Source: Cognatundibacterium aquatile (lineage in GTDB: Bacteria; Pseudomonadota; Gammaproteobacteria; Burkholderiales; Burkholderiaceae_D). From it: a stretch of DNA of 64,000 nt. The translations under genes were made by a program, and so were the position numbers. Positions 4,507-59,131 of the stretch are shown in pieces; the first letter of the stretch is position 1, and every line of letters begins with the position of its first letter. The notes beneath the pieces are model-generated. The model had not been told where the DNA came from and made no database searches. It was given only the letters and a program-made list of their open reading frames with translations. The stretch spans positions 186,001 to 250,000 of the forward strand of contig NZ_JACOFT010000004.1 of the NCBI RefSeq assembly GCF_014699135.1, read 5' to 3'.

Positions 4507-5367
4507 ATGATAGTCGTCACAGGTGCTTCCGGCCAGCTTGGTCGTTTAGTGATAGAAGCCTTATTAAAAAAAATTCCAGCCAGTGAGATCGTCGCGGCGG
4601 TACGTAAGCCAGACAGCGTGAATGATTTGGCCGGGCGCGGTGTACAGGTGCGGCAGATCGATTACAGTCGCCCGGAAACGCTTGCTGGCGCTTTCAAAAA
4701 GGGTGAAAAATTACTGCTCATCTCCAGCAGTGAAATCGGGCAGCGCGTATCTCAGCATAAAGCCGTGATCGATGCGGCGAAAAACGCCGGTGTTGAACTG
4801 ATTGCCTATACCAGTATTTTGCATGCAGATTCTTCCCCATTGCCGCTGGCTGCCGAACACAAGGAAACCGAGCAACTGCTGCAGGCTTCTGGTTTGCCAG
4901 TCGTTCTGTTAAGAAATGGCTGGTATACCGAGAACTATCTCGCCAGCGTGCCAGCGGCTTTACAGTACGGTGTCTTGCTGGGAAGTGCCGGAGACGGTCG
5001 CATTTCATCTGCTGCCCGCGCTGATTACGCAGAAGCGGCTGCGGTGGTGCTGACCAGCGAAAATCAGGCCGGGCGCATTTATGAGCTGGCAGGTGATGAT
5101 TCGTATTCTCTGCAAGAGCTGGCGCAAGAAATCGCGCGGCAATCAGCTAAAGCAGTGGCTTATCAGAATTTGCCGGAAAGCGCTTATAAAGATGCCTTGC
5201 TGAGTGCGGGTCTGCCTGAACCGGTGGCAGTGTTGTTGGCCGAATCTGATGTCGGTGCGTCGAAGGGGGGTCTGTTTGATGATAGCCATCAATTGAGCAA
5301 ACTGATCGCACGCCCAACCACGGCATTGCCAGTATTGCTTAAAGCTGCGCTCGCGTCGGCATCCTGA
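4507..5367 (+). CDS. ytfG: NAD(P)H quinone oxidoreductase 2 family (YtfG/QOR2)
   Basis: Rossmann-fold NmrA-like SDR of 286 residues, the same length as E. coli QOR2, which reduces quinones with NAD(P)H. The N-terminal MIVVTGASGQLGRLVIEALL holds the GASGQLG dinucleotide motif. VELIAYTSILHADSSPL, the HKETEQLL stretch and LRNGWYTENYL match the family. An upstream in-frame ATG exists, but the ATG at 4507 is preceded by AAAGGGA and gives the standard N-terminus. It is divergent from the HxlR regulator and convergent with kup. Confidence 0.9.
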   Translation: MIVVTGASGQLGRLVIEALLKKIPASEIVAAVRKPDSVNDLAGRGVQVRQIDYSRPETLAGAFKKGEKLLLISSSEIGQRVSQHKAVIDAAKNAGVELIAYTSILHADSSPLPLAAEHKETEQLLQASGLPVVLLRNGWYTENYLASVPAALQYGVLLGSAGDGRISSAARADYAEAAAVVLTSENQAGRIYELAGDDSYSLQELAQEIARQSAKAVAYQNLPESAYKDALLSAGLPEPVAVLLAESDVGASKGGLFDDSHQLSKLIARPTTALPVLLKAALASAS

Positions 5368-5374
5368 AAATAGG

Positions 5375-5418
5375 AATGCAGCCAGTCATCATCATGTTCA
5401 TCGAAGGCTGGCTGCATT
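5375..5418. terminator. Bidirectional terminator between ytfG and kup
   Basis: AATGCAGCCAG and CTGGCTGCATT form a perfect 11 bp stem with a 22 nt loop between two convergent genes. The flanks are A/T rich on both sides, so it can serve both strands. Confidence 0.75.
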
Positions 5419-5439
5419 TAGCTGAAAATACTTTTTGAC

Positions 5440-7317
5440 TTAAATCTGCACCCGGGTACCAAGTTCGATCACGCAATTATTCGGCAGATGGAAATAATCG
5501 ACGACGCTCAGCGAGTTACGCGACATCAGTGCAAATAAAATTTCCCGCCAGTGCGCCATCCCCGTACCTTTGGTCGGCACAACGATTTCGCGGCTCAGGA
5601 AATACGAAATTTCAAACATATTCAAGGTCAGGCCATGTGCCTTGCACAACTCCAGCGCTTTCGGAATATCCGGCGTATTTTTAAAGCCATAGTTCAGTTT
5701 CACTTTCCAGAACCCAGGAGCTAAGGCTTCGACTTGTACCCGTTCTTCAAACGGCACCCACGGCACATCATGAAACTTCACCGTCAAAATAATATTGCGT
5801 TCATGCAGCACCTGATTGTGCTTCAGATTATGTAATAAGGCTTGTGGCACCGTATCTGGGTTCGCGACTGCATACACCGCAGTCCGCGATGCGCGCGGCG
5901 TGTTGTCACCGGATAAGGCGGTCACGAAAGGCAATAACTCAGGATCACCTTTGCGTATGCTGTCGATCAATAATTCGCGGCCACGTCTCCAGGTCGCCAT
6001 CACCAGAAAAATCGCAACGCCCATCGCCAGCGGAAACCATCCACCCTGCAAAAATTTCAGCGAACACGCGACGACCAGCAAAACATCCAAGGTTAAAAAT
6101 ACGCCGGTCGCAGTGACTGCCAGCGCGAAAGGCATTTTCCAGCCGTGATGAATCACGAAAAAAGTTAAGATGGTCGTAATCATCATCGTCACCGTCACGG
6201 CAATCCCGTAGGCGGCCGCCATCGCGGAAGAGCTGCCAAAGCCGACAACGGCAAGCAATACGCCAACGAGCAACAACCAGTTAACGCCGGGCATATAAAT
6301 TTGCCCCATCTCTTTCGCCGAGGTGAAATTCACCTGCATGCGCGGCAGCAGCCCTAACTGCACCGCCTGCTTGGTCATCGAATACGCACCTGAAATAACC
6401 GCTTGCGAAGCGATGACGGTGGCGATCGTTGCCAGCACGACGGCGGGTATCAACAGATGCTCTGGGAATAAGCGGAAAAACGGGTTTTCAATCGCCGACG
6501 GATCGCGCATCAGCAAAGCGCCCTGGCCCATGTAATTGATCGCCAACGCAGGTAAGACCATGCCTGTCCAGGCTAATTGGATAGGACGTTTTCCAAAGTG
6601 CCCCATGTCTGCATACAGCGCTTCGGCGCCCGTAAAAGCGAGCACAATCGCACCGATAACGATAAAAATATGCCAGCCTTGCGAGCTTAAAAAACGAATC
6701 GCGTTCAAGGGATTCAAAGCAGCAAGAATCGCTGGTTGCAACATGATTTCACTGATCCCCGCGACGGCTAACACAGCAAACCAGATCACAATTACAGGGC
6801 CAAACAGTTTGCCGACCACGGCTGTGCCGTAGCGCTGTACGGCGAATAAGGCAATCAGTACGGCGATGGAAATGGGCAAGACATAGGGCTTGAATCCCAG
6901 CGACACTACTTCTAACCCCTCGACCGCGCTCAGTACAGAAATCGCCGGAGTGATAATACTGTCGCCATAAAATAAAGACGCACCGAATACGCCGGTCAGC
7001 AACAGAATTAAACGTCGCTGCCCCGTATCACCAGCCGCTTTCGCTGCTAATGCGGTGAGCGCCATGATGCCGCCTTCGCCGCGATTATCTGCGCGTAAGA
7101 TCAGCAGAACATACTTCAGCGTCACCACCATCATCAGGCCCCAGAAGATGACCGACACCGCACCGATCAGATGCGTGGTATCCAAAGGCACGCCCGTCGC
7201 GGGGCTGAATACCTCTTTCATGGTGTACAAAGGGCTGGTGCCGATATCGCCATAGACCACGCCCAACGCACCGAGCGTTAAGGCAGCCATGCTTTCGCGG
7301 CCAGAATGTTGACTCAT
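5440..7317 (-). CDS. kup: Low-affinity potassium transporter Kup
   Basis: Inner-membrane K+/H+ symporter of the KUP/HAK/KT family, 625 residues with about 12 membrane segments and a cytosolic C-terminal tail. The family signature [17 protein letters not shown] is at residues ~13-29, and GEGGIMAL and [14 protein letters not shown] follow. The frame stays open for 74 more codons upstream, but [16 protein letters not shown] at 7317 matches the normal family start and the extra sequence does not look like Kup. On the same strand upstream come the NACHT island and then a KdpDE-like two-component system. Confidence 0.95.
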
Positions 7318-7816
7318 ACAATTCCCGAAATTCAATGAACAGAAATGCACTATGCGGTGGCTGGCATCAGGAAAGCATAAGGAAATAATCAGGAATGAAT
7401 CAATAACTGCGTCAGGCGTGCGCTTTTCCAACACAACACAACGCAGTGCTAACTTCGCACCGGTACAGCTCTTGGCGAACGCGCGGCGAACGCACACTGC
7501 GCGTGATGAAAATGGAGCGCTTATAGCGGAAGAACGCATCCTTCAATAGCGCTTAAATCGTCCCCTTAACGGCAGACGAACAGCCTGAATTCTGCATACT
7601 CCCCCCTGTTTTTAATAAAACACCCTTAATCCCTGCAGAAACATTGGGCTTGTAAACATACTCGGGGGAGTATATTTTTAGGGTTTTGAGAGTGTTTGGA
7701 GGTGGTTGTTTGGGTACCAGGCACACGGTAGTGAATACTGATATCGGTTAATGTGATTGCTATGAGTAGAAGCTTGTTTTTTTAAGGAGACATATACCGC
7801 AGGTCAGAAAGCTGAT
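7318..7816. other. Intergenic region upstream of kup holding repeat copy A
   Basis: Up to 7578 the frame of kup is open but without homology signs, so this is taken as leader and promoter DNA. Repeat copy A occupies about 7579-7690. From 7691 to 7816 I see no gene. A T run followed by AAGGAGACATATACC near 7780-7797 precedes the end of the small exported-protein gene. Confidence 0.6.
7579..7690 (+). repeat. Intergenic repeat, copy A (ATACTCCCC family)
   Basis: First of five related elements in this window. ATACTCCCCCC near 7596 pairs with GGGGGAGTAT near 7665. The right arm also forms a local palindrome, ATACTC-GGG-GAGTAT. It is about 93% identical by eye over ~100 bp to copy B, in the same orientation. 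Confidence 0.85.
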
Positions 7817-8308
7817 TTAGCACCCGCAGCCCCCAGATACGGAAAGCGTGACCTGACTGCCGGCTGAGCTTACTTTGGCAGTGCAGGAATAGCCAATGTA
7901 CTCACAGCCTGGCGTTCCCCAACAGGTCTGAGATACCTTACAACTCAGAAGCGTTCCGCTGGCAGGTGCCGAGAATCTGTATTCAGTTTTATCGCCGACC
8001 TGGGGCTCAGAGTTTGTGCCTCCCTTACGGCGGCTCTTCACTCCTACAAGTACCTGGCGCTCGGTTTTTCCGTTTATCTGCATTGCGGCTTCTGTCGGTT
8101 CTTGCACCCCATAGATCCAGGCCATAACCGTCGAAGATTGACCGTGGCTGCTGCTAAAGTTGCAGCTGCAGCCCTCGAACTCCTTCTCAACAACTTCGGG
8201 CATTCGTTCCACTCTGACCTTACCGTTACGCGACTGCGCCAAGGGTTCGCTCGCGATACATCGGACAGTAATGCAGATGCTGAGGGCGGACAAGACTATG
8301 AACTTCAT
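7817..8308 (-). CDS. Small exported cysteine-rich protein, unknown function
   Basis: I do not recognise the family. The ATG at 8308 gives 163 residues with a signal peptide, MKFIVLSALSICITVRCIAS. A TTG at 8329, 2 bp after the NACHT stop, is an alternative start with GAAAGAG upstream and would add seven residues. The mature part carries a GCSCNFSSS motif near its start, CKVSQTCWGTPGCEYIGYSC near residue 130 and ends in GGCGC, so several disulfides or a metal site are possible in the periplasm. It follows the NACHT gene almost without gap, which suggests co-transcription. Confidence 0.6.
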   Translation of the reverse strand: MKFIVLSALSICITVRCIASEPLAQSRNGKVRVERMPEVVEKEFEGCSCNFSSSHGQSSTVMAWIYGVQEPTEAAMQINGKTERQVLVGVKSRRKGGTNSEPQVGDKTEYRFSAPASGTLLSCKVSQTCWGTPGCEYIGYSCTAKVSSAGSQVTLSVSGGCGC

Positions 8309-8331
8309 GTGGTTGCGGAACTGGAGCAAGG

Positions 8332-10158
8332 CTAGCTCTTTCGCTTTCTGTCAAAGATCATGGGTCGGCTATTCAGCTTGTTGGCGTGAACTTCCGCTTC
8401 CTTTAGCTTTTCCTTCAGCTTATAGATATGATCTGCCAGACTCCTCTGGCATTTATCGATTCCCCATCGATCCAGAAACTTCGGGAATGCGAATTCTATT
8501 TCGTTGTTCAGATGAGCTGAGATTTGCATTTCTTCGGCACGAAGTTCCGATACCTCGGATTCAGTTAGAATTTCTGGTCCGGTGAGGAACGCGGCTGTTG
8601 ACAGCACGTCGCTAAGTTCTCGTGCATAGAAGTTGTCTGCTTCTTGCCAACTCCCAAATGAGGACCGCTTAAACGTTCCAGCCTTATCCGGCGACGCACG
8701 ATAAGCGACGTACGTTTTGCTCATCCATGAGGGCATCATGGTCTGTAGTTGTATTCCACTTTTGCACGCGGCAAGTTCTTCAAACAATGAAATCGCTAAA
8801 CGTAGATTGTTGATCGCGAAATATTTGGAGAATCTGTAGGGATCAATGCTCTGTAGAAAGCCAAGGCATTCCTGCCAGTGAACCCACGACACGGTGGCTT
8901 CTTCGTAGAACCGTTTAGCGAATGCATCATCAGAACTTTTTACGAATGCAGCGGCGTGATATTCAGCGATGCTCTTATGAAGGAACGTCGCGTCTCCGAC
9001 ACCTTCCTCTAGCATCAGGCATGCAACCTTGGTTATGTCCTTTCTGAACGCAGATTCCTTGCATGCTGATCCTTCAAGGTAGTCTTGTGCAAGCTCAAAG
9101 GCTTCATTGAACTGTGCTGGACTCAGAGTCCGGCTGGTTCCGAGTTGAAGGCTCATGAAACAGAATGCCTCAAAGAGGGCTTGGAGTTTCCTTTCTGAGA
9201 GTCCTGAGTGGTGCTCTCTTTCAAAGGCGGCCTTAAGCTTATCGTGGCGAGTAAAGACTGTGTAAAAAAGTCTATCAAAGAACTCGGGGAGGTCGGCTGG
9301 AATCTGCTTTTCGGATTGGTAGACAAATACTACCAAGGTTAACATCAGGGGGGTGACAATCAACCCCGCTACTTGACTCGGACTCGACTGAATTGCGTGC
9401 ACGATATCGACAATTTTGACGGGTTCAAGACCTAGTGCCTGCAGAAATGGAGGGTAGTCTGCTGCATGCAACGGAGCGACTTCCAGTACTCGAAAGGAGT
9501 TGAGTTTTTGAACCTCGTTGTTTGGTCTTGAAGTTACAATTATCTGAAGTTCCGGGAATTTTTGCGCAAGGTGTTCGAGGTCAAGAGTCGCTTGTCTAAC
9601 CAGTGGCGTTTCCAATTCATCGAAGCCATCGAGGAGTACTACAATCTTTCCTGATGCAGCCAGATATTCGAACAATGCATCGTCTACATTAACATCATAA
9701 GCCGACAATGCTTTGTGAATAGATGCGATTAATGGAGTCGATTTTGTGACTTTTCTCAGCTCAAGAAAGATCGGTAGGCGTCGGTTGTCCTTACGGAGAA
9801 TTTCTTGGAGTGCCAGATAGCGAAGTAGAATCGATTTTCCTTGGCCAACGATGCCTTGAATGACTATGCAGCCTTCACCAAGATCGGTAATTGACTCTAG
9901 GACCGTTGATCTTTCTTCAGCAGAACGAAGCCTACTCGGATAGTAGAAACTTCTGAGTGAAACATTCTTTTCTGGGCTCCATATCGTTCGCACAGAGTCG
10001 ATGTCGGAAAGTTGTCTAGCAATCTTCTTTGAGAATCCTGTCGCGGTCCAGCGGTCAAGCGACCTTTGGACTGTTCCCTTTGCGCCGTCGTAAATGTCTT
10101 TTATTATCGGAGACGCTGCCTTTGCTATCGCTGATAATCCGATTATGGTCGCGCTCAT
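8332..10158 (-). CDS. NACHT-domain STAND NTPase (bacterial NLR-like)
   Basis: 608-residue protein with a NACHT module. Walker A is GIVGQGKS (residues 102-109), Walker B is KIVVLLDGFDELE (171-183), and IIVTSRPN (206-213) follows as sensor. A winged-helix end motif, TFLHKSIAEYHAAAF, lies near residue 393. The ~100-residue N-terminal part, with SVRTIW and LRSFYYPS, resembles the helical N-terminal domain common in bacterial NACHT proteins. After NACHT there are ~200 residues without visible LRR, WD40 or TPR repeats, ending in a basic coiled coil. Some bacterial NACHT proteins are known antiphage proteins; that role here is inference. No nuclease, TIR or protease effector domain is visible. Confidence 0.88.
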   Translation of the reverse strand: MSATIIGLSAIAKAASPIIKDIYDGAKGTVQRSLDRWTATGFSKKIARQLSDIDSVRTIWSPEKNVSLRSFYYPSRLRSAEERSTVLESITDLGEGCIVIQGIVGQGKSILLRYLALQEILRKDNRRLPIFLELRKVTKSTPLIASIHKALSAYDVNVDDALFEYLAASGKIVVLLDGFDELETPLVRQATLDLEHLAQKFPELQIIVTSRPNNEVQKLNSFRVLEVAPLHAADYPPFLQALGLEPVKIVDIVHAIQSSPSQVAGLIVTPLMLTLVVFVYQSEKQIPADLPEFFDRLFYTVFTRHDKLKAAFEREHHSGLSERKLQALFEAFCFMSLQLGTSRTLSPAQFNEAFELAQDYLEGSACKESAFRKDITKVACLMLEEGVGDATFLHKSIAEYHAAAFVKSSDDAFAKRFYEEATVSWVHWQECLGFLQSIDPYRFSKYFAINNLRLAISLFEELAACKSGIQLQTMMPSWMSKTYVAYRASPDKAGTFKRSSFGSWQEADNFYARELSDVLSTAAFLTGPEILTESEVSELRAEEMQISAHLNNEIEFAFPKFLDRWGIDKCQRSLADHIYKLKEKLKEAEVHANKLNSRPMIFDRKRKS

Positions 10159-10273
10159 TTTTTCCTTAATTAACAGTAGCTGGGTTGCATCAGCTGCGGA
10201 AGTCGTGAAACCTAACTTGGGAGTTAAGGCCGCACCGAAGGCATCGGCTTTGGATGACGTATTAGGCCTCTAA
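10145..10273 (+). CDS. Possible 42-codon ORF with signal-peptide-like start
   Basis: Reads MVALIFSLINSSWVASAAEV and ends DDVLGL. It has a hydrophobic N-terminus with an Ala-rich cleavage-like site and an Ala/Lys-rich tail. It is antisense to the first codons of the NACHT gene and has no clear ribosome site. It may be chance, or a fragment of an exported protein left at the island border. Confidence 0.2.
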   Translation: MVALIFSLINSSWVASAAEVVKPNLGVKAAPKASALDDVLGL

Positions 10274-10345
10274 GGTTACAGCCGAGATTTAAGTTTGCAA
10301 GATTGCATCTTAACTCAGCGTTAAAAAATTAACCATACGCTTGCT

Positions 10346-10582
10346 ATGCCTTTTTCTATTTATCTAGTCTGGCTATGTTTGGGTATACCGGTTAAAGATA
10401 GCGCATATCCAAGCAAAAAAAAGGATCACATCAACGGCATCGCCAAAGCTCGTTTATTCGAATAGCTGCGGGAACGGAAGTGTTACCTGTATTCACGTTT
10501 CGCAACTGAAAAAACATGCCTACTGGATACGCATTTGCCTACGCTGGCAACAGACAAAAATCATCCTCAAAACTGCAGGTAA
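10346..10582 (+). pseudogene. Possible decayed ORF with one amber stop
   Basis: The frame starts MPFSIYLVWLCLGIPV and reads on to ARLFE, then TAG at 10463-10465, then LRERKCYLYSRF onward to a stop at the edge of repeat B. Apart from the amber codon it stays open for 78 sense codons. I recognise no family; chance is a real alternative. Confidence 0.2.
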
Positions 10583-10690
10583 ACAGCCTGAATTTTGCAT
10601 ACTCCCCCCTGTTTTTAATAAAACACCCTTAATCCCTTCAGAAACATTGGGCTTGTAGAGATACCCCGGGGAGTATATTTTGAGCATTTT
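10582..10690 (+). repeat. Intergenic repeat, copy B (ATACTCCCC family)
   Basis: Near-identical to copy A and in the same orientation: both begin AACAGCCTGAATT and share the CCCTTAAT and GAAACATTGGGCTTGTA core. Arms are ATACTCCCCCC near 10599 and CCGGGGAGTAT near 10668. Copies A and B bracket the NACHT island. Confidence 0.85.
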
Positions 10691-10722
10691 GACGGGGCTA
10701 GTGGCAGATGACGATGCTGGCG

Positions 10723-11409
10723 CTAGATGGCGGCCAGGCGATAGCCGACGCCGGTTTCTGTCAGCAGGTAGCGGGGTTCTGTCGGGTTGTCTTCGATTTT
10801 TGCGCGCAGTTGTGCCATGTAGAGTCGCAGGTAATGCGTGTGGTCGATGAATTCTTCGCCCCAGACATCGACCAGCAGCTGGCGGTGTGTGACGACTTTG
10901 CCGCTGCTGCGCACCAGGCGTGCAAGTAAGCTGAATTCGGTTTTGGTCAGATGCAGAACCTGGCCGTGGCGTTCGACCAGGCGGGTGCTGAGGTCGATGT
11001 GTAAGCCATCCAGCGTGTATTCGGTTGTGGCGGCGGGCACGTTGGTGCCCCGGTGGCGCAAGGCGACCCGGATGCGCGCCAGCATTTCACCGACGCTGAA
11101 TGGCTTCGTCAGATAATCGTCTGCGCCTGCATCCAGCAGGGCAATTTTTTCGGCTTCCTGGTGTCTGGCTGAAACAATCAGAATCGGCAGATTGCTTTGC
11201 TTGCGCACCTGGCGCACCAGGTCGGCTCCGTTACCATCGGGCAGGCCCAGATCGAGCACCATCACATCCGGCAACGCATGTTTTAAGATGGCGCTGGCTT
11301 CGCTGATGGAGACGGCGGTTTGCACGGTAAACCCTTCGACAGACAACGATGCCTGTATCAGTGAGCGTATCTCTTTGTCGTCTTCCACCACTAACACGCG
11401 GATGCTCAT
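10723..11409 (-). CDS. kdpE: OmpR-family response regulator, KdpE-like
   Basis: 228 residues: receiver domain (MSIRVLVVEDDKEIRSL, phospho-acceptor Asp in VMVLDLGLPDGNG, Lys in YLTKPF) followed by a winged-helix DNA-binding domain ending YLLTETGVGYRLA. The closest family is KdpE, regulator of potassium uptake. Its ATG overlaps the stop codon of the sensor gene (ATGA at 11406-11409), giving translational coupling. No kdpFABC is in the window; the nearest potassium gene is kup, past the island. Its likely target is therefore kup, which is inference. Confidence 0.88.
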   Translation of the reverse strand: MSIRVLVVEDDKEIRSLIQASLSVEGFTVQTAVSISEASAILKHALPDVMVLDLGLPDGNGADLVRQVRKQSNLPILIVSARHQEAEKIALLDAGADDYLTKPFSVGEMLARIRVALRHRGTNVPAATTEYTLDGLHIDLSTRLVERHGQVLHLTKTEFSLLARLVRSSGKVVTHRQLLVDVWGEEFIDHTHYLRLYMAQLRAKIEDNPTEPRYLLTETGVGYRLAAI

Positions 11410-12971
11410 GACAACTCTCCTGCAAGTGCGGGTGGTTGCGCATCCAGCGGTAACTGCAAGCTGAATTCGCTGCCGCCTTCCTGTGGCTGGTTCAGCACCA
11501 GATTGCCGCCATGCACAGTTGCGATGGCCTTGCAAACGGCGAGCCCGAGTCCTGAGCCGCGCTGGCTGCTGCGATCGGTGTGATCGCCACGCACATAGGG
11601 TTCAAAAATACTGAGTTGTTCGTGTTCCGGTATGCCTTTACCGCTGTCTTTCACCGAGATCCGCATCCACTGCTGATGCTGATCGGCGTTGTGTTCATCA
11701 GAACCTTGTGCGCCCTGTATGCTGACGTGCAGTTGTATGTCGCCATCGGTATATTTCAGGGCGTTTTCCAGCAAATTCGCCAGCAGTTGCGAAATCAAAA
11801 CCGGATCGACTCTGACCAATGGCAGGCCTTTCGGAAGCTGAAGCTGAATGCGTTTGTCTGTGTCATGTTGGCGCACCCGCGCCAGCACGCTGCCGATGAT
11901 TTCTTCTATGGATTCCCAATCCCGCACCAGCGATTGCGGTGTGTTTTCCAGACGCACAAGTTGCAGGGTGTTTTCTGTCAGCGCCGATAAATATCCGGCT
12001 TCTTTGATGATGCTGTCGAGCAGGTGTTCTTGTTCGGCTGTGCTGAGTTTGGCATGCTGAAGTTGCAGCGCGGATGCTGCACCGACCACGACGGCTAATG
12101 GTGTACGTAAATCATGCGAGACCGCCGCTAAAAATATGCCCTGTAATTGCTGACGCTCTGTTTCGCGTTGCGCAGCCAGAATGCTGGCGTTCAGGCTTAA
12201 TCTCAAGAGCGCCTGCGCCAGTATCGTACAAAGCGCTTCGGCATGCTGGCGGCCGCTGCTGTCATTTGCAGCAACGGATTGTATGCATACAGCGCCCAGC
12301 ATTTGTCCATGCGGATGACTATCTGCTATGGGTAAATACCATGCGTCGAGATCAGACCAGCGATTGGTGCCCGCGCCGATGACGCTGCCTTCTTTCATGC
12401 AGCATGCCATGCCATCGCGTATGGTCACCGGCAGCTCATCGCGGCAATGTAGTTTTCCGCTGGCGTCGTTCAGACCAAGCAGGTTGATGCCGGAAAAAGA
12501 ATCGTCGAACGCTTGTTGTCCTAAGCCAGAAATATCGTCAGCGCTATTGCATGCGGCGAGTTGCACCGCCAGATGTTGCAATTGTCGTGCACGTTGCTCA
12601 TTCAGATGCGCGATCTCGGTTTCTCGACGTAGGCCAGATGTCAGGCGATGAATCACCAAGGCCAGCACCAGCATCGTGATCAGTGCAATGAAATGTTCCG
12701 ACTGATCGATGCGGAAGGTCCAGCGCGGTGGCACAAAAAAGAAATTCAGCGCGGCCACCGCGGCGAGGGCGCAAGTGACAGAGTAAATCCAGCTTAACCT
12801 GTATGCCGCAATCACGACCGCCAGCACATAGATCATGGACTGGCTGGTGAGCGAGACATAAGGGTCAATCAGCGCATTGACACCGCTGGCTGATGCCAGC
12901 AGTAAAAAGATAGAAAAGCTATCTCTTAACGGGGAATGCGGTCGCTGCAGGAGCTCAGTGATTTTGTTCAT
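11406..12971 (-). CDS. kdpD: Short KdpD-like sensor histidine kinase
   Basis: 521 residues, against about 890 in E. coli KdpD. It begins at the four-segment DUF4118 membrane domain (residues ~15-115, with LNFFFVPPRWTF), then a GAF-like region (~140-270), HisKA with SHDLRTPLAVVVGA (~285) and HATPase_c with LLENALKYTDG, DSGKGIP and GSGLGLAVCKAI. The N-terminal KdpD domain and the USP domain of full KdpD are absent. KdpE follows with a 4 bp overlap. Short KdpD-like kinases are known in other bacteria; the signal sensed is uncertain. Confidence 0.85.
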   Translation of the reverse strand: MNKITELLQRPHSPLRDSFSIFLLLASASGVNALIDPYVSLTSQSMIYVLAVVIAAYRLSWIYSVTCALAAVAALNFFFVPPRWTFRIDQSEHFIALITMLVLALVIHRLTSGLRRETEIAHLNEQRARQLQHLAVQLAACNSADDISGLGQQAFDDSFSGINLLGLNDASGKLHCRDELPVTIRDGMACCMKEGSVIGAGTNRWSDLDAWYLPIADSHPHGQMLGAVCIQSVAANDSSGRQHAEALCTILAQALLRLSLNASILAAQRETERQQLQGIFLAAVSHDLRTPLAVVVGAASALQLQHAKLSTAEQEHLLDSIIKEAGYLSALTENTLQLVRLENTPQSLVRDWESIEEIIGSVLARVRQHDTDKRIQLQLPKGLPLVRVDPVLISQLLANLLENALKYTDGDIQLHVSIQGAQGSDEHNADQHQQWMRISVKDSGKGIPEHEQLSIFEPYVRGDHTDRSSQRGSGLGLAVCKAIATVHGGNLVLNQPQEGGSEFSLQLPLDAQPPALAGELS

Positions 12972-13040
12972 CTGAGCAGCGTACCATAGACGATATTAAG
13001 AACGCATCAGGATTTTCTGACTATTCAATCGCGGAAATGT

Positions 13041-19575: not shown

Positions 19576-19600
19576 GTCCCTGGCCTTGCAGGTCAGGGAC
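19576..19600 (+). terminator. Hairpin between the TonB receptor and GH28 gene
   Basis: GTCCCTG and CAGGGAC form the outer stem, with CCT/AGG inside, followed by ATTTTAAAA. It lies in the 55 bp gap of an apparent operon, so it may lower downstream expression or protect the receptor mRNA end instead of ending transcription fully. Confidence 0.5.
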
Positions 19601-19621
19601 ATTTTAAAAGATGGAAAAATT

Positions 19622-21493
19622 ATGAGTGTTGTGATTAACGAAAAACGCAGAAGCCTGTTGCAAGCCGCATCCAGTGTCGGACTGTTGATGGGCAGTGGTC
19701 TGGCCAGCGAAGCGATTGCTGCGACAACGAAACAAGATCCATGGAAACAGGCGCAGGCGATTATTGATCGCTTTGCCAAACCTATCCATTTTCGCAAAGA
19801 AGATTTTCTGGTCACCAGTTATGGTGCCAAAACCTGTGAAGTAAAACCGGTAGAAGCATGGGTTTCTTTCGTCGAACGTAAAACCTTGCAGACGCCTGTT
19901 GCTGAAGCGACCGATTGCTATCCAGCTATTGCGGCTGCGATTGCTGCCTGCCATGCGGCCGGAGGCGGGCGTGTGGTGATTCCGGCGGGGAATTGGTACT
20001 GTGCCGGACCTATCGTTTTGCTCTCCAATGTGAATGTGCATCTGAATGCCGGAGCACACGTTTATTTCAGTAATAATCCGGCGGATTACGCCAAATACGG
20101 TAAGTATGACTGCGGCAAAAACGGCAAGCTCTCCATGACACGCTGGGAAGGCAATGATTGTCTGAATTTCTCGTCTATGGTGTATGCGTACGGTCAGCGA
20201 AATATCGCGTTGACGGGTGATGACTGGACGTCGATTCTGGATGGACAGGCCGGTGTTAATTTCACCGACAGCCCGTATTGCTGGTGGTCCTGGAAGGGAC
20301 GTGAAAAGCCAAGTTCGGTCGGTGATATTGCCCCTGGCAGTGGCGACTGGATCAAGCATCAGAAAGGCGAGACAGAAGTATCTTTGAATCCGCAGAATCC
20401 TGTATCGCTGGCGGAAGTTGCGCCGCATCTGACGGAAGAAAAACGCCTGTTCATTCAGGGCGAGGGTGATAAATGGCGTCGTGACTCGAATTATCTGCGG
20501 GCGCTGGCGGAAGCCGGAGTCGCCGCTGATAAACGTGTTTTCGGTTTAGGCCATTTCCTCCGTCCACACATGGTGCAGTTCATCAATTGCAGCAATGTTT
20601 TGTTTCAGGGTTATCAGGTAACGAATACGCCATTCTGGCAACATAACCCGGTCGGATGCCGCAATGTTCATGTGAAAAACATTTACGCCAACAGCGTAGG
20701 TCCGAACAGCGATGGCTTCGATCCAGAATCCTGTAACTACGTCCTGATCGAAGATTCGACGTTTGATACTGGCGATGATTGCATTGCTGTCGATGCTGGC
20801 AAAGGACCGGATGTCCAGTATGGTCCGTCACAAAATATCGTCGTGCAAAACTGCAAGATGCACAGCGGGCATGGCGCGATGACATTTGGCAGCATTATGT
20901 CGGCAGGTATTCAGAATGTGTTTGCACAGAATCTGGTATTTGAAAACAGCCATTGGAAAACCGATCCATTGAATATTGCGATTCGTTTTAAATGCAATAT
21001 GAGTCGTGGTGGTTTCCTGAAAAATCTGCACATCAGGAATATCAGTATTCCGAATGGTATCCGTACGACACCGGCGTTTTACTCAACCTTACCCGGTTCA
21101 GTGATTCCGACGAAATCGGTGGCAACTTCTGCCGGTGCGGTTATTACCATCGACTGCGGTTACGATCCGATCAACGACAATGTCCGTACACGTCCACCTG
21201 TGGTGTCCGATATTCACATTTCTAACGTTAATGTAGGTAACGTTGACACTGGTGCAGGGCAATTCTCCAGCTATCAGGCTATCGTTATTCTGGGGCCTGT
21301 ACCCAGCGATTACAACGGCCCTGCATCACCTGCGCCCAAAATTGTGCCGGTAAAAAATGTCACTATTTCTGACTGTGATCTCGGTAATCCGGTGAATAAA
21401 GAGAATCCTATGTATCTCTTTAATGTCAAAGACCTGGTACTGAAAAATGTCCGTGTCGGCGGTACAGTCTACAACAAAACATTGTCTGTCTGA
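19622..21493 (+). CDS. GH28-family pectin hydrolase, Tat-exported, with altered active-site motifs
   Basis: 623 residues, right-handed beta-helix of family GH28 (polygalacturonase-like). The ATG at 19622 starts a twin-arginine signal (KRRSLLQAASSVGLLMGSGL). GH28 motifs: PNSDGFDP (~360), GDDCIAVDAG (~383), GHGAMTFGSIM (~416), IRFK (~454). Compared with the paralogue at 25143, the conserved Lys after DDCIA-x is Asp, the Glu after GS is Ile, and RLK is RFK. The catalytic Asp residues remain. Substrate specificity may have changed or activity may be low. It ends at a strong terminator. Confidence 0.88.
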   Translation: MSVVINEKRRSLLQAASSVGLLMGSGLASEAIAATTKQDPWKQAQAIIDRFAKPIHFRKEDFLVTSYGAKTCEVKPVEAWVSFVERKTLQTPVAEATDCYPAIAAAIAACHAAGGGRVVIPAGNWYCAGPIVLLSNVNVHLNAGAHVYFSNNPADYAKYGKYDCGKNGKLSMTRWEGNDCLNFSSMVYAYGQRNIALTGDDWTSILDGQAGVNFTDSPYCWWSWKGREKPSSVGDIAPGSGDWIKHQKGETEVSLNPQNPVSLAEVAPHLTEEKRLFIQGEGDKWRRDSNYLRALAEAGVAADKRVFGLGHFLRPHMVQFINCSNVLFQGYQVTNTPFWQHNPVGCRNVHVKNIYANSVGPNSDGFDPESCNYVLIEDSTFDTGDDCIAVDAGKGPDVQYGPSQNIVVQNCKMHSGHGAMTFGSIMSAGIQNVFAQNLVFENSHWKTDPLNIAIRFKCNMSRGGFLKNLHIRNISIPNGIRTTPAFYSTLPGSVIPTKSVATSAGAVITIDCGYDPINDNVRTRPPVVSDIHISNVNVGNVDTGAGQFSSYQAIVILGPVPSDYNGPASPAPKIVPVKNVTISDCDLGNPVNKENPMYLFNVKDLVLKNVRVGGTVYNKTLSV

Positions 21494-25142: not shown

Positions 25143-27032
25143 ATGACCTTGAAGACATCATCGGAATCCCTTGCTGACCAGAAGTATCAGGGGCGACGCC
25201 GCTTACTGAAGCAACTCGCGGCAATCGGTATCGGTAGCAGTATGCCTTGGGCGGCGGCCAGTGCGGCACAGCGACAAACGCCAGCCGATCCATGGAAAAG
25301 AGCCACAGAAATTATTATGAAGCTGAGTGTTCCATTCCATTTTCGCGAAGCGGATTATCCGATCACACGATACGGTGCAAAAACATGTGAGCTGCAAAAA
25401 GTACAGGCATGGAGTTCGTTTGAGGATCAGGGTGTGTTACAGACTCCAGCGGCATCGTCTTTTGACTGTTATTCAGCAATTCGTAATGCGATAGAAACTT
25501 GTCACCGTGAAGGCGGCGGCCGCGTGCTGATTCCTGCAGGTGACTGGTTTTGTGCCGGGCCTATCGTCTTATTATCGAATGTTAAGGTTCACTTGCAGGC
25601 CGGAGCACATGTTTATTTCAGTCATCAGCCCGAAGACTATGCGAAATACGGCGACGTTGATTGCGGAAAAAACGGTAAGTTAAGTATTTCACGCTGGCAG
25701 AGCAATGACTGTCTGAACTATTCGCCAATGATCTATGCGATAGGACAAGAAAATATTGCATTGACGGGTGAAGACTGGACTGCGGTATTAGACGGGCAGG
25801 GTGGCGTGCCATTTAATGAATTCGGCGATTGCTGGTGGACCTGGAAAGGCAAGCTGAAAACGCTGAATGCAGTTGCACAGAGTTCAGTGCCGAATTATCG
25901 CCCCGGTAAGCCATCCGAAAATGCGGTGAATCCACTCAACGCTAAAACTTTAAAAGAAGTAGCGCCGCAGATCAGCCCGGAACTGCAGGCGCTGATACAA
26001 GGCAACGACGATAAATGGCGTGCTGACGCCAGCTATCTGCCTGCATTGTCAGAGGCTGGTGTTCCTTTACCTCAGCGTGTATTTGGTAAAGGACATTTCC
26101 TGCGTCCGCCAATGATACAGTTTATCGGTTGTCGCAAAGTATTGATGGAGGGGTATGAGGTCAGGAACACGCCATTCTGGCAGCATCATCCGGTGAATTG
26201 TCAGCATGTCGTGATTCGCCGTGTTCATGCAAAAAGTCACGGACCTAACAGTGATGGTTTTGATCCGGAAGCATGTGACCATGTTCTGGTGGATGGCTGT
26301 ACTTTTGATTCCGGTGACGACTGTATTGCGATTAAGGCGGGGAAAAATCTGGATACACAATATGGACCGTCGCGCCATATTGTGATTCAGAATTGTACGA
26401 TGCAGAGTGGGCATGGCGCCGTCACGCTTGGCAGTGAAATGGCGGGCGGCATCGAGCATGTTTATGCGCAGAATTTATTGTTTGAAAACGTACACTGGCA
26501 AACCAATCCCTTAAATACAGCGATTCGTCTGAAGACGAATCTGAATAGGGGCGGATATCTGAAACACTTCTATGTGCGTAATATCAAGATTCCAAATGGC
26601 GTGCAGACATCGCCATCGTTTTATACATCCTTACCGGGCTCACCTATTGCATCGAAGACGGTTGCCACGGCCGCCGGTGCGATAGTCACTTTTGACTGCG
26701 ATTACACGCCAGTCAGCGATAACGTGAGGATACGCCCACCTGTGGTTGAGGATGTGCATATTTCCAATGTCCGGGTGGAGAACGTGAAGACGGCAAAAGG
26801 TGAGTATTCCTGTTACCAGTCGATCGTTATTCTGGGGCCGGTTGCCTCCGACTATAACGGTAGTGCGCCGATGCCGGAAGTGTTTCCTGTGCGCGATGTG
26901 ACGATTACTGATTGTGATTTTGGTACGCCAGCAGCGGGCACACAGGCAATGTATCTGTATAACGTCAAAGGATTGAAGTTGCGTAATGTGAAGATTGGTA
27001 AAGAAGTGATCACGCGCGAGTATTCTGCGTAA
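25143..27032 (+). CDS. GH28-family pectin hydrolase, Tat-exported
   Basis: 629 residues, clear paralogue of the gene at 19622. The N-terminus holds a Tat signal, GRRRLLKQLAAIGIGSSM, then AAASAAQ as cleavage region, so the folded enzyme is exported to the periplasm. Motifs: PNSDGFDP (~367), GDDCIAIKAG (~390), GHGAVTLGSE (~423), IRLK (~460), all in the canonical form. Family GH28 of this type includes exo-polygalacturonases acting on oligogalacturonides. It ends the forward group at a strong terminator, facing a chemoreceptor gene on the other strand. Confidence 0.9.
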   Translation: MTLKTSSESLADQKYQGRRRLLKQLAAIGIGSSMPWAAASAAQRQTPADPWKRATEIIMKLSVPFHFREADYPITRYGAKTCELQKVQAWSSFEDQGVLQTPAASSFDCYSAIRNAIETCHREGGGRVLIPAGDWFCAGPIVLLSNVKVHLQAGAHVYFSHQPEDYAKYGDVDCGKNGKLSISRWQSNDCLNYSPMIYAIGQENIALTGEDWTAVLDGQGGVPFNEFGDCWWTWKGKLKTLNAVAQSSVPNYRPGKPSENAVNPLNAKTLKEVAPQISPELQALIQGNDDKWRADASYLPALSEAGVPLPQRVFGKGHFLRPPMIQFIGCRKVLMEGYEVRNTPFWQHHPVNCQHVVIRRVHAKSHGPNSDGFDPEACDHVLVDGCTFDSGDDCIAIKAGKNLDTQYGPSRHIVIQNCTMQSGHGAVTLGSEMAGGIEHVYAQNLLFENVHWQTNPLNTAIRLKTNLNRGGYLKHFYVRNIKIPNGVQTSPSFYTSLPGSPIASKTVATAAGAIVTFDCDYTPVSDNVRIRPPVVEDVHISNVRVENVKTAKGEYSCYQSIVILGPVASDYNGSAPMPEVFPVRDVTITDCDFGTPAAGTQAMYLYNVKGLKLRNVKIGKEVITREYSA

Positions 27033-58120: not shown

Positions 58121-58498
58121 TAAAAACTAGAAAAGGCGGCGCTCTGGGCATAGCGTCCAGATTGCCACTATCAGGAATGCATGACGATGATCTTATCGTT
58201 GCGCATTCCTGTTTTTTTTGCCATGTGCTGACAGTTTTTCACAACTTGTATTTTTCCACATCATCCCTATTTATTTGGGCAAGCAAAGAGCGTCGCCGCA
58301 GAGCCTCAGATCCACATAGCAGGCATAGCGGACGTATCCGCCTCAGGTCGTTTATACTCTTGGTCTTCGCTGTATCAGCTGTATTCAATTTCTCAACTGA
58401 TCGGCAGACGCATTTACCGCAACAGGATAAGCGCAATAGACGGCTATTGCGTTGCCCCGCAAGACGGGAATCCACTCAACAGAATTCGCGAGCACTGT
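58121..58498. other. Gap upstream of ribA
   Basis: Contains the terminator at 58173-58219 and CGCAATAG-ACGG-CTATTGCG (58432-58451), a perfect 8 bp hairpin 47 bp before the ribA start. I do not see the conserved blocks of an FMN riboswitch. No gene is supported in 58220-58498. Confidence 0.6.
58173..58219 (+). terminator. Terminator after the chalcone isomerase-like gene
   Basis: AGGAATGC and GCATTCCT pair, with ACGAT/ATCGT inside, followed by GTTTTTTTT. Confidence 0.88.
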
Positions 58499-59131
58499 AT
58501 GTCAAGCAACAATCCGCCTGTAGAACAAGTAAAGCTGGCGCTGGAATACGTCGATTCCTGCAACTTACCGACGACTTGGGCAAACTTCCGCATGCATGCG
58601 TTTGTTGAACCTGCGACAGGCAAAGAACACATTGCGCTGACGCTGGGCGATGTCGCCGATGGCAAGCCAGTGCTGGCGCGTATCCATTCCGAATGCCTGA
58701 CCGGCGACGCCTTATTCAGCCTGCGCTGTGATTGCGGCCCGCAACTCGAAATGGCTCTCAAAAAAATCGCCGACGAAGGCCGTGGTGCCTTGCTGTATCT
58801 GCGTCAGGAAGGCCGTGGCATAGGCTTGCTGAATAAAGTCCGCGCTTATCACCTGCAAGATGACGGTGCCGATACCGTCGAAGCCAACCAGCGCCTGGGC
58901 TTTGCCGCCGATCTGCGCAATTACAGTCTGGTCGAACCGATGCTGCAACATCTCGGCATCCATTCCCTGCGCCTGATGACGAACAACCCACGCAAACTGT
59001 CAGCGATGGAAGGATTAAAAGTCACAGTCGCCGAACACGTGCCGCTGATCATCGAACGCAACCCCTACAACGACCGCTACCTGAACACCAAGGTCAGCAA
59101 ACTCGGCCACATGCTGTCACCGGAACTCTGA
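58499..59131 (+). CDS. ribA: GTP cyclohydrolase II
   Basis: 210-residue zinc enzyme that opens GTP to 2,5-diamino-6-ribosylamino-pyrimidinone phosphate, the first riboflavin step. Zinc ligands are in HSECLTGDALFSLRCDCGPQ, and RQEGRGIGLLNKV is the conserved GTP-contact helix. MTNNPRKLSAMEGLKV is the usual C-terminal motif. It is a stand-alone RibA, without fused RibB. A hairpin but no recognised FMN riboswitch precedes it. A short tandem repeat and a terminator follow. Confidence 0.96.
   Translation: MSSNNPPVEQVKLALEYVDSCNLPTTWANFRMHAFVEPATGKEHIALTLGDVADGKPVLARIHSECLTGDALFSLRCDCGPQLEMALKKIADEGRGALLYLRQEGRGIGLLNKVRAYHLQDDGADTVEANQRLGFAADLRNYSLVEPMLQHLGIHSLRLMTNNPRKLSAMEGLKVTVAEHVPLIIERNPYNDRYLNTKVSKLGHMLSPEL

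Follow-up and report, generated by a model that had tools for sequence, protein, structure and literature searches.

The genome of Cognatundibacterium aquatile raises the question of how a gene for an NLR-like NACHT NTPase came to lie between kup and the genes for a KdpDE-like regulator pair. In the 64,000-nucleotide stretch analyzed here (the window, positions 186,001 to 250,000 of contig NZ_JACOFT010000004.1), two repeats in the same orientation, A and B, enclose a 608-amino-acid (608-aa) NACHT protein and a small Cys-rich protein, and kup and the KdpDE-like pair lie outside of them. A first-pass annotation of the sequence described this arrangement, as our analysis bears out, and viewed the block as an accessory, defense-type cargo that had entered by recombination at, or duplication of, the repeat; the accessory and defense-type parts of that view stand, and the repeat-mediated entry does not. 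The block contains a remnant of an integron integrase gene (intI) with its attI site, and a sister species carries different cargo within the same shared repeats at the same site. Most probably, then, the block is a decayed integron that lacks its integrase and carries defense-type cargo. Comparisons within the genus draw on 43 genomes, that of C. aquatile (G000) and 42 others, with the sister species designated G016.

An integrase gene remnant with different cargo in two species

Close to repeat B, positions 10411 to 10558 of the plus strand hold a decayed 5′ fragment of intI (limits set by eye) that is cut off near the repeat and recognizable by homology via a cassette array elsewhere in the same genome (the C1 array, locus L026). 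Window positions 10425 to 10695 match L026:7195-7466 at 78% identity over 272 bp, the repeat included. The reading frame of the window version is broken, whereas the corresponding strips at the kup site of the sister species (L098), in the C1 array, and in genomes G008 (L100) and G012 (L101) spell the N terminus of IntI (all by eye); tblastn searches with IntI proteins of intact congeneric integrons return these four loci with E values, referring to small subject sets, of 3e-19 (L101), 2e-13 (L098), 4e-9 (L100) and 2e-8 (L026). Nucleotide comparison aligns L098 and L101 with the intact intI-attI region of genome G036 at 74 to 75% over about 270 bp; the L098 leader reaches 75% over 268 bp (E 6e-47, again for a small subject set). 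In L098, L101, L100 and the L026 unit, homology to intI stops at the same bases of L141, 2354 to 2356. An alignment of nine sequences, the window strip among them, spans the attI core and extends into the intI N terminus.

On the other side of this fragment lies an attI-like leader (positions 10283 to 10410, minus strand), which, as part of the strip beside B, aligns with L099:14445-14620 at 72% over 177 bp and belongs to the nine-sequence alignment. Homology between the two leaders breaks off opposite window position 10283, where L099:14445 is the first base of a GTTAGGC motif, the usual crossover motif of integrons; in other leader pairs (L098 with L101, and two within L026), such a motif lies no more than about 12 bases from the end of the homology, as judged by eye. 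In most leaders, the two elements of a promoter-like pair are 17 bp apart; the pair of the window, with this same spacing, is weak and comprises a −35 element at 10330 to 10335 and a −10 element, TAAGAT, at 10307 to 10312 (all by eye). The attI site beside intI is assigned by homology, via intermediates, to the attI regions of intact congeneric integrons, and the cassette promoter by its motif, read by eye; the leader may be an active promoter.

As for the integrase itself, the truncated, frame-broken fragment is the only trace of its gene at this site. Intact IntI scores over the cutoff in 12 of the 43 genus genomes, and in none of G000, G016, G008 and G012. For the tyrosine recombinase family PF00589, nine matches are listed in C. 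aquatile, and these are candidates for a role here. Loss of intI is common: in one survey, nearly one third of intI genes were pseudogenes (PMC2426708).

The sister species provides the comparison that distinguishes cargo from framework. Its Kup and histidine kinase are 99% and 94% identical to those of C. aquatile, and its kup site retains both repeats and an intI/attI remnant at the same place, but the genes inside differ, namely one for Abi-alpha (PF14337, E 3e-23) together with three open reading frames (ORFs) without Pfam matches. Inside the repeats, the DNA common to the two species is limited to about 110 bp beside B and an 89-bp piece beside A (positions 8221 to 8309, minus strand, equivalent to L098:3337-3423; 94%), which forms an edge of the swapped cargo and contains the 5′ end of the Cys-rich gene. 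In L098, the Abi-alpha gene is followed by an attC candidate ending near L098:3438 and then by this 5′ end. The cargo has therefore turned over, in this single comparison of two genomes, between the attI core on one side and position 8309, or the Abi-alpha attC candidate, on the other, and these edges, attI core and attC/cassette start, are the points where an integrase would cut. Both switch points lie inside the repeats, which argues against entry of the block at, or by duplication of, the repeats themselves.

Kup-regulator intervals of 12 relatives support the accessory status of the block. In eight of them (L102, L103, L104, L107, L108, L110, L111 and L112), kup and the regulator are separated by about 90 to 235 bp (lengths by subtraction) with no repeat match; three (L105, L106 and L109) have about 6 to 7 kb of other DNA in the interval, and the remaining one is G016. 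A kup site with a single repeat copy, the precursor that repeat-mediated entry predicted, was not seen among these 12 intervals, the eight empty sites being devoid of the repeat. Of the 42 other genomes of the genus, two encode relatives of the NACHT protein at about 50% identity. With an Abi-alpha gene in the same slot of the sister genome, the locus looks like a site of defense-gene swapping. In G013, the interval of about 7 kb (L105:3383-9066) encodes NUDIX regulator-like, PRPP synthetase-like and nicotinamide phosphoribosyltransferase-like proteins (translations judged by eye), and that of G015 (L106) is of the same size.

We propose that a truncated intI, an attI site, a cassette promoter and the cassettes behind it were all enclosed between two repeats resembling miniature inverted-repeat transposable elements (MITEs), with the NACHT and Cys-rich genes as cassette cargo that would be read from the attI promoter toward repeat A. 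An integrase, whether from an older intact intI or acting in trans, would have exchanged the cargo between attI and the last cassette, and it is to this exchange that we attribute the Abi-alpha and other genes of the sister species. The unit is framed by the repeats, which may also have assisted in its copying between the C1 array and the kup site.

Repeats, leaders and possible movement of the unit

Repeat A (7573 to 7692, plus strand) has a core at about 7596 to 7677 with inverted ends ATACTCCCC (from 7596) and GGGGAGTAT (to 7673), and repeat B, found both by a repeat finder and by searching the genome, occupies positions 10575 to 10695 of the same strand. The two are identical at 106 of 121 aligned positions; the repeat finder stretches the pair to 135 bp at 87%, and a genome search with A returns B as its best other match (92% over 111 bp, E 3e-40). 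The pair is nevertheless not unique: 40 copies, A and B among them, were scored in C. aquatile out of 139 first-look candidates, and most of these 40 span little beyond the 82-bp core with its ends ATACTCCCC and GGGGAGTAT. With a core of about 82 bp, inverted 9-bp ends and this copy number, A and B are members of a dispersed MITE-like family, and 18 of its 20 best copies overlap no ATG-started ORF of at least 120 aa. The repeat itself was rejected as an attC site: R″/R′ pairs spanning it in L100 and L101 (minus strand) score 1.0, and its core is dispersed. Nor do we argue for concerted evolution of the two copies, which are 88% identical to each other in C. aquatile and 83% in G016, with orthologous copies at 84%.

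Nine copies match over 98 to 120 bases at 83% or more: besides the two in the window, these are five in the C1 array (65 to 76 kb) and single copies on C14 and C11. The match of a further copy, at C1:64362, covers 82 bases. The C1 copies share one orientation and separate short gene runs that lie mostly on the minus strand (genes judged by eye), a rule broken by an SMR-type gene between the first two repeats. At the place matching the C1 array, G016 has four repeat copies with partly different genes, and G008 and G012 have one copy each, so that accessory genes recur next to this class of repeat. Elsewhere in the C. aquatile genome (L030, C15:72000-91999), a span of 3 kb contains three low-identity copies, each of them on the minus strand.

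Did the repeats move the unit? Two direct, MITE-like repeats could have carried the intI-attI-cassette segment to kup as a composite unit, either by transposition or by recombination between repeats, a scenario that deserves serious attention although we would stop short of calling it probable. The repeat and the intI fragment form one block of 236 to 272 bp common to the kup sites and the C1 array. In G008 and G012, the order is intI fragment, attI, one gene, attC candidate and repeat, with the single repeat at the far end of a one-gene remnant, and this layout may be the older form; in C. aquatile and G016, several units are bounded by and end in a repeat, and one of these has both the repeat and the intI fragment in common with the kup unit. 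Tandem copying and transfer via the repeat, as proposed for Acinetobacter (PMC3934969), would explain such repeat-ended units. Class 1 integrons provide the precedent there: a 439-bp MITE cuts them at identical positions, pointing the same way on either side. The window resembles them in an integron segment that one MITE-like element cuts, in a single orientation, at its two ends, with variable cassettes inside; it differs in that its repeat is short (core of about 82 bp rather than 439 bp) and its unit lies between host genes of a 367-kb contig, not on a resistance plasmid, and has no intact intI (PMC3934969). Against a composite unit, the repeat is so dispersed that its nearness to the remnant may be coincidence, and no relative examined has a kup site with a single repeat.

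Equally, the repeats could be bystanders, dispersed intergenic elements of an ordinary kind that came to lie next to the remnant without contributing to its movement; this is conceivable and again somewhat less than probable. The 40 scored copies genome-wide fit this, as do a copy on C11 without cargo (by eye) and the absence of a leader within 1.5 kb of any of the copies ranked 11 to 20. Among the 10 best copies, five have a leader nearby, the same one in two cases. The obstacle is that eight of the nine copies matching over at least 98 bases sit at cassette-type loci (the two in the window, the five in the C1 array and the one on C14).

The leader is itself dispersed. That of L026 has 12 matches in the C. 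aquatile genome at eight places (neighbors grouped), and 10 of 11 further copies begin at query positions 9 to 23, near a GTT core (at about position 16, by eye); matches to the L098 leader occur in 20 of the 43 genus genomes, including those with intact integrons. Each of seven scattered leaders examined lies 9 to 47 bases ahead of an ORF, taken as the longest one starting between 20 bases before and 300 after the leader end, a choice made without a control set. Two of these ORFs have family matches: one encodes an FRG protein (PF08867, E 2e-22; PADLOC PDC-S15, E 9e-60), the other an OLD-type ATPase-TOPRIM protein (PADLOC Old, E 2e-70). The remaining five match no family over the cutoff. We raise, as a tentative idea that we would not yet favor, that the attI-promoter segment of a dead integron itself became a dispersed module in this genome, standing ahead of scattered ORFs just as it precedes the NACHT gene. 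If so, stranded cassettes would keep a promoter of their own without an integrase, and the leader would offer a sequence tag for finding unknown defense genes; dispersed leaders that are real promoters would also bear on the expression of cassettes far from the integron promoter. The FRG and OLD-type genes lie behind integron-type leaders at L154:6080-6796 and L157:2896-4599, and in G008 the gene behind the intI/attI remnant (L100:9657-11450) encodes an AAA ATPase related to the PADLOC ATPase-Toprim and AriA models. At a third cassette-like locus of C. aquatile (L027, C14:115000-134999), which adjoins a repeat copy, two attC candidates accompany an ORF for an HNH protein (PF13391) and another that looks ankyrin-like by eye; homology of this locus to G016 breaks at positions 6520 and 9016.

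Possible cassette capture of the NACHT gene

An integron or its integrase-less remnant should have at least two attC sites, and the best candidate, of the textbook type, lies in the cargo of the sister species (L098:5693-5759; arm-pairing score 11.0). Scores were judged against a set of 36 R″/R′ pairs. With each strand treated separately, these come from the window and seven further loci, L027 and L113 with their cassette-type genes included; the best pair (window 58474-58610) reaches 7.0. Only L098:5693-5759 and the candidates of L100 (8.5) and L101 (8.0) exceed this value; L099:10659-10719 equals it and the others are lower. Strict scanning and arm pairing together yield further candidates at L098:5254-5352, L099:13434-13511 and 10659-10719, L100:9512-9628, L101:9368-9454, and L027:6482-6580 and 8557-8659; the tally is one weak site in the window, one strong site and two candidates at the sister site, and two candidates at the C14 locus. 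The strict scan returns 9 sites in 20 loci, with sites in five of the nine loci beside an intact intI. A reverse-read control of ten of these 20 loci (235,006 bp, each strand counted on its own) gives 3 matches, so that the scan is only moderately specific. The window site, between the attI core and the NACHT gene (10210 to 10267, minus strand; R″ GCCTAAT and R′ GTTAGGT), was found by eye. When matched to plasmids, it returned 12 records with at most 33% query coverage and E values of 3 or worse, and we discarded these.

Several observations weigh against a decayed integron with the NACHT gene as its cassette. The window attC-like site ranks 20th among the 36 pairs by arm complementarity, which is no better than chance, and the remaining attC candidates are weaker evidence since they do not score above the best comparison pair. 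The strict scan finds no site in the window, in L026 or in L027. The window strip matches intact integrons directly over only 17 bases, the link otherwise running through intermediates, and the −35 element of its leader is poor (by eye). No attC was found behind the NACHT gene, whose stop codon is about 20 bp from the segment shared with G016, and the NACHT family is not integron specific, with attC or IntI at none of 10 loci that encode its relatives. These last two points leave room for another route to the remnant, such as illegitimate recombination with loss of neighboring cassettes. We think such a route unlikely: the NACHT gene starts behind the attI core and in cassette orientation, like the first gene of the sister species. 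Under the decayed-integron reading, the NACHT gene would have entered as a cassette, and the Cys-rich gene is probably a separate one.

A defense island inserted by recombination at the repeat and unrelated to integrons, as the first-pass annotation had it, would account for an accessory block flanked by direct repeats but is very improbable given the intI/attI remnant inside those repeats and a sister site, with different cargo within shared repeats, that largely contradicts it.

The cargo and its published counterparts

The NACHT protein (8332 to 10158, minus strand; Pfam NACHT, E 6e-14) has the STAND NTPase module with its Walker A and B motifs: among 60 aligned homologs, G102 and G105 to S109 (Walker A) and D177, D180 and E181 (Walker B region) are invariant. 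A profile of these homologs finds only NLRC4 in the PDB (5 sequences, best E 1e-4, positions 89 to 274), a database in which the single NACHT sequence has no match. Neither the NACHT protein nor the Cys-rich protein matches any PADLOC or NCBIfam model (for NACHT, no PADLOC model at E up to 1), no N-terminal effector was recognized in the former, and the candidate defense model PDC-S60, which 11 of the 60 homologs match, does not recognize the NACHT protein of the window. Of 8,000 scored candidates, 696 proteins, itself included, pass an E value of 0.001, the best full-length relative being 73% identical. Across the order, two of 399 sampled genomes, C. aquatile included, encode the protein at E 1e-60, and within the genus, four genomes besides the two mentioned above have relatives at 24 to 28%. 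Plasmid relatives number 162 records, 103 of them from Klebsiella (about 29 to 34% identical in the rows shown).

Published bNACHT proteins protect Escherichia coli from phages (PMC12169576), and for this reason we treat the window gene as a predicted defense gene, the assignment being by family. The window protein shares with them a NACHT module with a C-terminal extension but differs in its lack of a recognized N-terminal effector and of a PADLOC match. It probably acts as an NLR-like anti-phage sensor, in which NTP-dependent oligomerization would lead to cell arrest or death.

The Cys-rich protein (162 aa; 7817 to 8305, minus strand) adjoins repeat A and, with its hydrophobic start (by eye), is probably exported, as the first-pass annotation had supposed; its seven database matches, one of them identical, have no Pfam domains. 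The flanking host genes, identified by Pfam and by comparison with relatives, all lie on the minus strand and are those first annotated: kup (5440 to 7323), a KdpE-like response regulator (10723 to 11409) and a histidine kinase (11406 to 12971) with a DUF4118 domain, as in KdpD.

Chromosomal integrons that have decayed are known as clusters of attC sites lacking integron-integrases (CALINs), in which the absence of the integrase is part of the definition. As in published cases, putative attC-bearing cassettes occur in the C. aquatile genome at several chromosomal sites, with no integrase and with degraded intI; this genome differs in that it has kept an attI-promoter leader in many copies, in its repeat-bounded units, and in a window without a convincing attC (PMC9024848, PMC12444791). 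Integrons as libraries of anti-phage genes (Darracq 2025, Kieffer 2025 and Getz 2025, as described in PMC12409362 and PMC12444791) likewise hold defense-type genes as cassettes, but the window concerns a probable decayed integron outside Vibrio with NACHT as cargo. A full-text literature search for integron with NACHT, with subscription papers mostly outside its scope, returned a single paper, on HEPN domains, which does not describe such a link in the passages concerned, and one for Undibacterium with integron found no paper on integrons of the genus, as judged by title and start of abstract. Through a comparison of two species at one site, the locus would connect an NLR-like gene of bacteria with the exchange of defense genes by way of integrons.

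In the region around the locus (window 5000 to 13000), Rfam returned no family at E up to 1. Farther along the window, two diverged direct repeats share a spacing of about 5.5 kb: 19913 to 20212 with 25464 to 25763 (70%) and 20534 to 20652 with 26076 to 26194 (76%). The first copies of both lie inside an ORF of 635 aa (19586 to 21493), which suggests a gene duplication.

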